Both the position numbers and the translations under genes were made by a program. The notes below the pieces were generated by a model. That model was not told the DNA's origin and did no database searches. It saw nothing but the letters and a program-made list of their open reading frames with translations. DNA of 64,000 nt from Nakamurella panacisegetis (lineage in GTDB: Bacteria; Actinomycetota; Actinomycetes; Mycobacteriales; Nakamurellaceae), in assembly GCF_900104535.1 (NCBI RefSeq), contig NZ_LT629710.1, forward strand, positions 310,001 through 374,000. Reading direction: 5' to 3'. How positions within the stretch are numbered: position 1 is the stretch's first letter; every line of letters begins with the position of its first letter. Below, piece after piece: positions 27,928-29,702 of the stretch.

Positions 27928-29195
27928 CCACCGACCCGACGACGGTGGAGCGGACCAACTGGGCCGGCAACGTCACCTTCTCCGCGGCCCGCTTCCACGG
28001 CCCGACGAGCGTTCCGGAACTGCAGCGGATCGTCGCCGGGGCCCGGGCGGTGCGCACCCTGGGTTCGGGGCATTCCTTCAACCGGATCGCCGACACCGCC
28101 GGCGACCTGGTCTCGGTGTCCGGCCTGCCCACCGTGCTGGAACTGGACTCGGCCGCGGGGCAGGTGAAGGTCAGCGCCGGCACCCGCTACGGCGAACTGG
28201 GACGCTTCCTGCAGCGGCAGGGCTTCGCGTTGCACAACACCGGTTCGCTGCCGCACATCTCGGTGGCCGGCGCCAGCGCCACCGGAACCCACGGATCCGG
28301 GGTCGGCAACGGCAATCTGGCCACTATCGTGTCCGCGATCGAGATCGTGGGGCCGGGCGGTGACCTCGTTTCGCTGAGCCGCCGCGCCGACGGCGAGCCG
28401 TTCAACGGGATGGTGCTGGCCCTGGGGGCCCTGGGCGTCATGACGTCACTGACCCTGGAGGTGGTGCCGACCTTCGACATCCGCCAGGACGTCTTCGAGG
28501 AGCTGAACGCCACGACCCTGGACGAGCACTTCCAGGAGATCATGGCCTCGGGCTACAGCGTCAGCGTCTTCACCGACTGGACCACCCCGGGGCGCTACCA
28601 GGTCTGGCGGAAGTCCAGAGTGGACGCGTTCACCGGCACCGACGACTTCTTCGGCGGTATACCGGCGGCGGTCGACGTCAACCCGGTGCCCGGCATGCCG
28701 GGCGAGAACGCCACCGCCCAACTCGGTGTGCCCGGGCCGTGGAACGAGCGCCTCCCGCACTTCCGGCTCGAATTCACCCCGAGCAGCGGCGACGAGTTGC
28801 AGGCCGAATACCTGTTGCCCCTGGCTCAGGCGGCGGCTGCCCGGCAGGCGCTGGAGGAGATCTCGTCGCTGATCGCTCCGGTGCTGATGATCTCCGAGTT
28901 CCGGGCCATCGCGGGCGACGATCTGTGGATCAGCCCGAGTCACCGGCAGGACAGCGTGGCCTTCCATTTCACGTTCCGGCCGGATCCGGTGGCGCTGGCG
29001 CCGGTGACGGCGGCGATCGAGGCCGCCCTGGCGCCGTTCGGCGCCCGTCCGCACTGGGGCAAGGTGTTCGCCACGGCCCCGGAGGTCCTGGACACGCTCT
29101 ACCCCCGGATGGACGACTTCCGAGGTCTGCTGCGCACCTACGACCCGGCCGGGAAGTTCCGCAACGAACTGGTCGAGCGGCTGATCCGGGTCTGA
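27924..29195 (+). CDS. Alditol oxidase-like FAD flavoprotein
   Basis: This 423-aa FAD-binding oxidoreductase is closest in form to actinobacterial alditol (xylitol) oxidase and to sugar-lactone oxidases. The N-terminal FAD domain holds [14 protein letters not shown] (His about 49, the covalent flavin site in alditol oxidase) and [14 protein letters not shown]. The C-terminal ALO domain ends HWGKVF...YDPAGKFRN. It would oxidise sugar alcohols with O2 to give H2O2. GTG 27924 overlaps the araA stop as GTGA, so it belongs to the arabinose operon. An arabinitol or L-arabinose-derived substrate is an inference. Confidence 0.85.
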
Positions 29196-29212: not shown

Positions 29213-29240
29213 GCGGCCGCCGGCTGGTGCCGGCGGCCGC
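29213..29240. terminator. Perfect 12-bp hairpin after the arabinose operon
   Basis: GCGGCCGCCGGC (29213-29224) and GCCGGCGGCCGC (29229-29240) pair perfectly around TGGT. It lies between convergent genes and can end both the arabinose operon and the tiny Lys-rich gene. No U tract is present. Confidence 0.75.
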
Positions 29241-29259: not shown

Positions 29260-29310
29260 TCACTTCTTCTTGCTCTTCTTGCCCTTCTTCTTGTCCTTCT
29301 TCTTCGCCAT
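29260..29310 (-). CDS. 16-aa lysine-rich micropeptide
   Basis: Minus-strand ATG 29310 opens a 16-codon frame. The peptide is MAKKKDKKKGKKSKKK: twelve lysines, one aspartate. A textbook AAAGGAGG lies 7 nt before the ATG, and a strong hairpin follows the stop, so the unit has all parts of a real gene. Similar tiny KKK-rich peptides exist in other actinobacteria to my knowledge, with no assigned role. Binding to RNA, DNA or acidic membrane lipid is plausible but unproven. It is divergent from a small HTH gene. Confidence 0.6.
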   Translation of the reverse strand: MAKKKDKKKGKKSKKK

Positions 29311-29385
29311 GTTCGCCTCCTTTCGCTCCGGGTGGCCGATCGGGCGGCCACCGCACTCGTCTCGAATGCCGACAGTCAAGCATCC

Positions 29386-29403
29386 GTTGACGATGACGTC
29401 AAC
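29386..29403. promoter_or_regulatory. Inverted repeat with extra GTTGAC half-sites
   Basis: GTTGACG-ATGA-CGTCAAC is a perfect 7-bp inverted repeat. Further half-sites ATTGAC and GTTGAC follow to 29437. The cluster fills the divergent promoter region between the Lys-rich peptide and the HTH gene and may be an operator; the last GTTGAC also sits where a -35 box would be. Confidence 0.5.
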
Positions 29404-29453
29404 ATACCATTGACCCCGACGGCAACTACTCGTTGACGCCGAAACGACACGGG

Positions 29454-29459
29454 TAGGCT
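29454..29459 (+). promoter_or_regulatory. -10 hexamer TAGGCT, leaderless HTH gene
   Basis: TAGGCT lies 6 nt before GTG 29466, with GTTGAC (29432-29437) 16 bp upstream as a possible -35. This is the best-formed leaderless promoter in the window. Confidence 0.6.
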
Positions 29460-29465
29460 ACGACG

Positions 29466-29702
29466 GTGCCGGAGCCCACCCACGCGAAGCGCGTCGCCCG
29501 CGCGGTCGAAGCACTCCGCGAGGTGGCGGATCCATTGGTCCGCCTTGACGCCGTCCGGGCGGCCCTGGAACAGCTGGAGGAACTCGAGGCCTCCACCGTC
29601 GCCGAGGCCAGAGCCGCCGGTGCGACCTGGGGGCAGGTCGGAGCGATCTACGGCCTCACCAAACAGGGTGCTCAGCAACGCTTCCGGACGAGAGAGTCCT
29701 GA
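29466..29702 (+). CDS. Small HTH protein (sigma-70 region 4-like)
   Basis: This 78-aa protein has an N-terminal helical region (AVRAALEQLEELEASTVAEARAAG). The C-terminal helix-turn-helix ATWGQVGAIYGLTKQGAQQRF is of the kind shared by sigma region 4 and small actinobacterial regulators. It lacks any effector domain. It may bind the GTTGAC repeats in its own promoter and control the divergent Lys-rich peptide. The function is not known. Confidence 0.7.
   Translation: MPEPTHAKRVARAVEALREVADPLVRLDAVRAALEQLEELEASTVAEARAAGATWGQVGAIYGLTKQGAQQRFRTRES

Follow-up and report, generated by a model that had tools for sequence, protein, structure and literature searches.

Can an open reading frame of 16 codons, rich in lysine, be a genuine bacterial gene, and if so, with what does it work and to what end? 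The question is raised by a locus within the window analysed here, that is, the whole 64-kb stretch C1:310001-374000 of a genome held on a single contig of 5.01 Mb, in which such a frame lies divergent from a small HTH gene with palindromic sites between the two. The features concerned, in window coordinates, are the following.

29213..29240, minus strand: terminator-like hairpin with a perfect 12-bp stem and a 4-nt loop, starting 19 bases past the micropeptide stop
29260..29310, minus strand: 16-aa lysine micropeptide gene, MAKKKDKKKGKKSKKK (ATG 29308-29310, TGA 29260-29262)
29316..29323, minus strand: Shine-Dalgarno sequence AAAGGAGG of the micropeptide gene, with the ATG five bases 3'
29375..29391, no strand assigned: operator GTCAAGCATCCGTTGAC, one mismatch to GTCAAY-N5-RTTGAC
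29398..29414, no strand assigned: operator GTCAACATACCATTGAC, exact fit to the degenerate pattern GTCAAY-N5-RTTGAC
29421..29437, no strand assigned: operator GGCAACTACTCGTTGAC, one mismatch, its right half-site overlapping the putative HTH -35
29433..29459, plus strand: putative HTH promoter, TTGACG -35 (29433-29438), 15 bp, TAGGCT -10 (29454-29459)
29466..29702, plus strand: 78-aa standalone HTH gene of the ClpC2-N-terminus/RelI family, GTG start, probably leaderless

The micropeptide gene and its relatives

The first-pass annotation had described a lysine ORF with a perfect Shine-Dalgarno sequence and a terminator, divergent from the HTH gene, and both the divergent arrangement and the ORF with its well-placed Shine-Dalgarno sequence were recovered, the latter exact to the base. 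The hairpin after the stop was likewise found, and a 151-nt fold of its region gave a z of -3.3; no U-tract lies 3' of this terminator-like structure, which may be shared with the convergent gene that ends at 29195. No promoter could be placed for the micropeptide gene, since a clear -10 on the strand of the gene is lacking in the window, as in most loci.

Chance was rejected as the origin of the ORF on two kinds of control, the hairpin counts in random stretches given below and a filter for lysine-rich ORFs (10-60 aa, at least 40% Lys and at least 5 Lys). No second ORF in the 64-kb window passed this filter, and 57 control loci whose HTH matches are of another kind or more distant (185,093 bases) yielded a single one, the 10-aa VKKKIEKTPK, which is unlike the micropeptide. 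A Shine-Dalgarno sequence followed by MAKKKDKK was present in only one of 345 class genomes, namely the window's own, but this motif is narrow and misses family members in G492 and G522, both of which have peptides, so that the existence of orphan lysine peptides, with no HTH beside them, cannot be ruled out. A K-K-x-K-K pattern matched 0/396 across the phylum, a pattern that cannot match even the peptide of the window.

Relatives were sought in a species-genome collection with one exact HTH string, [KR]QGAQQRF, which under-samples other variants. It returned 56 loci, 43 of them judged from their sequence to be true standalone relatives, and together with the genus and later HMM searches a set of 49 standalone HTH rows was obtained; L070, which lies at a contig end, and L004, which shares its contig with L047, were dropped. 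The HTHs of L059 and L110 are identical, and the two may represent one species, which would leave 48 rows if merged. In L145 and L146, both found by an HMM search that was run once the pattern was known, QAAQQRF replaces QGAQQRF, and both have peptide and operators. L110 is not part of the operator and leaderless table, L081 is outside the hairpin counts, and L110, L145 and L146 are outside the 40 tabulated peptides.

The same divergent pair, HTH gene and lysine-rich ORF, stands at 43 of the 49 loci, five rows have no peptide, and one (L061) has a longer coiled-coil protein instead. Loss of the frame or of the Shine-Dalgarno sequence in relatives had been named beforehand as what would refute the gene, and synteny of the pair as a way to check it; the frame and the pairing passed, and most loci also have a purine-rich Shine-Dalgarno-like stretch before the start (seen, not counted). 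Judged by this recurrence in many Actinobacteria beside the same HTH and tandem sites, the 16-aa lysine micropeptide gene is real, and standard annotation probably overlooks a gene of 16 residues that is almost pure lysine.

Two loci depart from the common form. At L061:1476-1874, in Actinomycetospora, the peptide's place behind the same operators is taken by a coiled-coil protein of 133 aa (all its coiled-coil matches are sub-threshold) whose N-terminus is rich in lysine, and which was not scored as peptide-positive; at L082:1728-1790, in a metagenome bin labelled Streptomyces, a lysine ORF with a good Shine-Dalgarno sequence has ACG at the start position and was scored positive nonetheless.

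The hosts include Nakamurella, Amnibacterium, Naasia, Gulosibacter, Trujillonella, Pseudonocardia, Tessaracoccus, Raineyella, Cellulomonas and Kribbia, as well as uncultured Acidimicrobiales and Streptosporangiaceae; L049 and L069 are from metagenome bins that bear the labels Acidobacteria and Dehalococcoidia, and these contigs may have been mis-binned. The module is rare, its HTH being found in 3/394 class genomes at E ≤ 1e-16, own genome included. Within the genus the HTH occurs in 5/17 genomes (E ≤ 1e-10), four of them with the divergent lysine ORF: the window's genome (MAKKKDKKKGKKSKKK), G006 (MAKKKKDKKKGKKKK), G008 (MSKKKDKKDKKDKKKKNNKKKK) and G010 (MAKGKKAKKVKKGKK), with none in G004. 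On a tree of the HTH, one branch (SH-aLRT 99) separates all 49 standalone rows from 20 ClpC2-like rows, the only split used, as 38 of 64 inner branches remain open in this 66-column alignment. The peptide label changes 6 times on the tree against a mean of 21.3 when shuffled, a pattern that would fit an old pairing of HTH and peptide with some losses.

No neighbour shared among loci was seen by eye in the ORF strings around 21 of them, and no sensor domain or common neighbour hints at a signal or a target. The ALO gene that adjoins the module occurs in 5/17 genus genomes, and in the other four a coarse ORF listing places no module beside it. A phage or plasmid origin is unsupported: tblastn at 1e-3 matched none of 50,697 phage records and 72,556 plasmid records, and no viral-contig relative was found, although all 45 HTH cores matched phrog_686, a phage HTH family. 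Nor is a defence system supported (padloc 0/45).

Composition of the peptides and their RNA

The window peptide contains 11 Lys, 1 Asp and no hydrophobic stretch. The 40 tabulated peptides range from 13 to 116 aa (33/40 have at most 26 aa), consist of 59% Lys, 16% Ala, 8% Asp, 7% Ser and only 0.3% Arg, all end in Lys, and carry Ala (36) or Ser (4) at position 2. The first-pass suggestion of a membrane-binding role is thus unlikely, for the short peptides hold almost no hydrophobic residues; nucleic-acid binding, its other suggestion, is plausible, without binding data. Known protein families gave no help: no Pfam match was obtained for six long peptides and no NCBIfam match for nine peptides plus the window peptide in padded form, low-complexity sequence being hard for such models and most of the short peptides falling below the 20-residue minimum of the tools.

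The serines are encoded by both AGC/AGT (23) and TCN (48), so that what is kept is the residue and not the DNA. The ORFs of L079 and L081 differ by one synonymous codon between flanks 81-87% identical, and six of the seven other pairs compared likewise show higher identity in the ORF than in either flank; the exception is L072/L080, with 88% identity in the 3' flank against 78% in the ORF. After the peptide stop, a stem scoring at least 7 follows at 29/39 loci and one scoring at least 12 at 21/39, compared with 13/195 and 0/195 of random stretches drawn from the same loci.

Such strong hairpins, and lysine codons that are almost all AAG (618/629), could be taken to mean that the short ORF acts through its translation, as a sensor of Lys-tRNA or of the ribosome, or as part of a regulatory RNA, the peptide itself having no role. 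We consider this very improbable. The Ser and Ala codons vary freely, versions reach 116 aa, and a known RNA was rejected, as no Rfam family reached its gathering score (three matches, all below it, best E 0.31). A leader-peptide attenuator was likewise discarded, since only the end of the convergent gene lies downstream in the window and there is nothing to attenuate.

Four loci in Microbacteriaceae and Tessaracoccus (L074, L076, L078 and L085) encode divergent Lys/Ala-rich proteins of 75-116 aa. In composition these long members resemble histone-H1-type polycations, the histone-H1-like and other lysine-rich nucleoid proteins being disordered and rich in Lys and Ala; the short lysine peptides differ from them in being far smaller and nearly free of arginine.

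The HTH protein, its operators and the link to ClpC2 and RelI

The HTH gene had been called leaderless, and this holds as a probable assignment, because its GTG at 29466 stands six bases past TAGGCT. A leaderless-type -10 precedes the HTH in 47/48 rows, at a distance of 6 or 7 nt in 46/47, against 3/147 in random frames, which served as the control for a count that picks the start codon by the -10 motif; a TTGAC -35 lies 15-19 bp from that -10 in only 21/47 rows. The AlphaFold model of the protein, a confident one (pLDDT 92.8), has four helices, the second of them Glu-rich, and the chain ends four residues past QQRFR. The protein has no Pfam match at 1e-3, and NCBIfam gave the HTH cores only stray matches, in 4 members at most. 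A Foldseek search with the model gave nothing at E ≤ 0.001, and the absence of RelI and ClpC2 from its rows proves nothing; the best row of a VIA structure comparison was Fis (Z 6.1, rmsd 3.9, 71 aligned), a Fis-like or sigma-region-4 fold thereby being no more than possible.

Profile comparison placed the protein. A profile of 45 HTH cores (A2) matched RelI (9sdc_A) with E 1.6e-12 (3.5e-6 for the single sequence) and the N-terminus of ClpC2 (8ada_A, Rv2667, residues 33-71) with E 6.6e-5, the recognition helix remaining unaligned where 8ada stops. Arg57 of ClpC2 aligns with R49 of the HTH, invariant in 45 rows, and the ClpC2 R57A variant is dimerisation-deficient, according to the available part of that paper (PMC10030653). 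The HTH protein is probably dimeric.

The cluster of GTTGAC half-sites noted in the first-pass annotation is indeed present, but its units are three 17-bp palindromes of the form GTCAAC-N5-GTTGAC whose starts are exactly 23 bp apart. This form, the HTH family and the link to ClpC2 and RelI had all been missed. As far as the accessible text of the ClpC2 paper goes, ClpC2 binds CGTCAAC-n5-GTTGACG in EMSA and is an autorepressor whose repression is relieved by cyclomarin A, the site occurs in repeated form in many actinobacteria among those analysed and overlaps putative -35 and -10 elements, and the transcripts look leaderless (PMC10030653). ClpC2 (Rv2667 and its actinobacterial homologues) thus shares with our protein an HTH-homologous N-terminus, the same palindrome over its own promoter and, judging from what could be consulted, a transcript suggested to be leaderless. 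Unlike ClpC2, which has a C-terminal cyclomarin-binding Clp_N part (Pfam Clp_N was found in 9/10 ClpC2-like proteins tested, L095 lacking it), the HTH of the window stands alone, with a divergent lysine peptide and operators that are mostly 23 bp apart. The published work, in the portion seen, assigns DNA binding to the C-terminal domain of ClpC2 (PMC10030653); since a standalone ClpC2-type HTH goes with the same operator, it is probably the N-terminal HTH that reads the operator DNA, an inference resting on the shared HTH and operator (window 29466-29702; L125-L127).

With up to two mismatches allowed in the 12 fixed bases, at least two operators are present in 44/48 standalone HTH rows. The peptide accompanies 42/44 rows with at least two operators and none of the four rows with 0-1 operator; L006, one of the five HTH rows without peptide, has two operators. 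The most frequent spacing in the standalone rows is 23 bp (38/67 gaps), compared with pairs 27-29 bp apart upstream of the HTH motif at 18/57 loci with a related HTH (ClpC2-like and other). Among these 18 are four ClpC2-like genes (HTH plus Clp_N) of the window's genus, L008, L010, L015 and L017, with two GTCAAC-N5-GTTGAC operators 28 bp apart. In Serinicoccus (L095, L097, L098 and L100), where the proteins have a related HTH, exact operators lie some 400-450 bp ahead of the match. G010 carries both ClpC2 (L017) and the lysine module (L007); because the operator is identical, ClpC2 may co-control the module there, and the two could cross-regulate.

Genome-wide, GTCAAY-N5-RTTGAC with one mismatch allowed occurs at 33 places, compared with 19 for its reversed form. 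The operators of the window account for three of the 33, no other two among the places listed lie within 400 bp of each other, and the sole other exact place is inside a coding frame of 525 codons. As no second operator cluster was found and this other exact place is intragenic, the array in the window would probably be the main or only target, so that the module regulates only itself; the other single one-mismatch places were not checked individually.

The close pairing of the HTH and peptide genes, the operators they share, the Glu-rich helix 2 and a protein of 78 aa, too small for a sensor domain, would also suit a peptide that modulates the HTH, acting on it as inducer or as co-repressor and taking the role that the fused, ligand-binding Clp_N part has in ClpC2. 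We find this distinctly unlikely, for without a second operator cluster the module would have no output beyond itself, and specific ligands seldom vary in length as widely as this (13 to 116 aa).

The second known relative, RelI of the RelS-RelI pair (Rv2664-Rv2663), is also a small standalone protein of this HTH family. In the part of the report available, RelI is the antitoxin of the rRNA-cleaving RelS and related to ClpC2 within the HTH region; a single operon encodes RelI and this partner, a 78-aa RelE/ParE-like RNase, and the authors find no inverted repeats upstream and no evidence of DNA binding (PMC13284704). The module of the window has clear operators and a lysine peptide, and no RelS-type neighbour: no adjacent gene forms an operon with the HTH, there being a convergent SDR gene downstream, 51 bp past the HTH stop, and only the opposite-strand micropeptide upstream.

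On account of RelI, the best solved match, the main rival reading is a toxin-antitoxin-like pair, in which the HTH would be both antitoxin and repressor and the lysine peptide a growth inhibitor neutralised by direct contact. Autoregulation inferred by homology, the patchy distribution in class and genus and the lack of shared neighbours at the loci viewed all speak for it. Against this, the two genes are divergent and form no operon, the convergent gene leaves no space downstream of the HTH for a RelS-type partner, five HTH rows have no peptide, and the peptide could hardly fold; such a pair thus seems unlikely to us, if still a serious contender.

A proposed self-contained module with a polycation as output

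The explanation that we put forward, and to which we give about an even chance, is that HTH and micropeptide form a self-contained, autorepressed module, and that its output, a cytosolic polycation, acts on a polyanion. The HTH, probably as a dimer, would bind the tandem operators between the divergent genes (binding by homology to ClpC2), repress its own gene, since in the window a half-site overlaps its own putative -35, and be expected to repress the micropeptide as well. Autorepression is likely and repression of the divergent peptide gene plausible, both on homology and operator identity and without any assay of this HTH. Upon derepression, should the HTH be lost or titrated away, a good Shine-Dalgarno sequence on a short mRNA would give a near-poly-lysine peptide, in most species of 13-26 aa. 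That the peptide is the output is suggested by the lack of a second operator cluster and by neighbours that vary in 21 loci. Its target is inferred: as a disordered polycation in the cytosol it may act on nucleic acid, the ribosome or polyphosphate, polyanion binding resting on charge alone, as read from the residues of the window peptide.

How the peptide gene responds to the HTH is less certain. At L083, L079 and L066 the operator nearest the peptide ends just 14-17 nt 5' of the ATG (14 nt at L083, counted from the last operator), too close for an ordinary promoter to fit between the two. As the peptide promoter is unexplained, activation of the peptide gene by the HTH is not excluded.

What can be established without experiment is the gene pair, its operators, their conservation and the HTH family. 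Going further, one may imagine an actinobacterial family of near-poly-lysine 'mini-histones' with dedicated ClpC2-type repressors, derepressed under stress, binding RNA/DNA or ribosomes and pausing growth, with ClpC2 possibly co-controlling them where present (G010); we offer this as a speculation that is unlikely to hold as a whole. The literature searched for such peptides and for the operator, most subscription papers lying outside its scope, leaves the pair undescribed, and on the operator only the ClpC2 paper was on point.

Together, the HTH and its lysine micropeptide have the appearance of a two-gene module, so far unrecognised, by which a tiny polycation is switched on and off. Next to Clp_N in ClpC2 and RelS for RelI, the peptide may be a third kind of partner of this HTH, and the loci provide a large set of conserved micropeptides that is easy to test, lies at the lower limit of gene size and has a regulatory handle ready for use.
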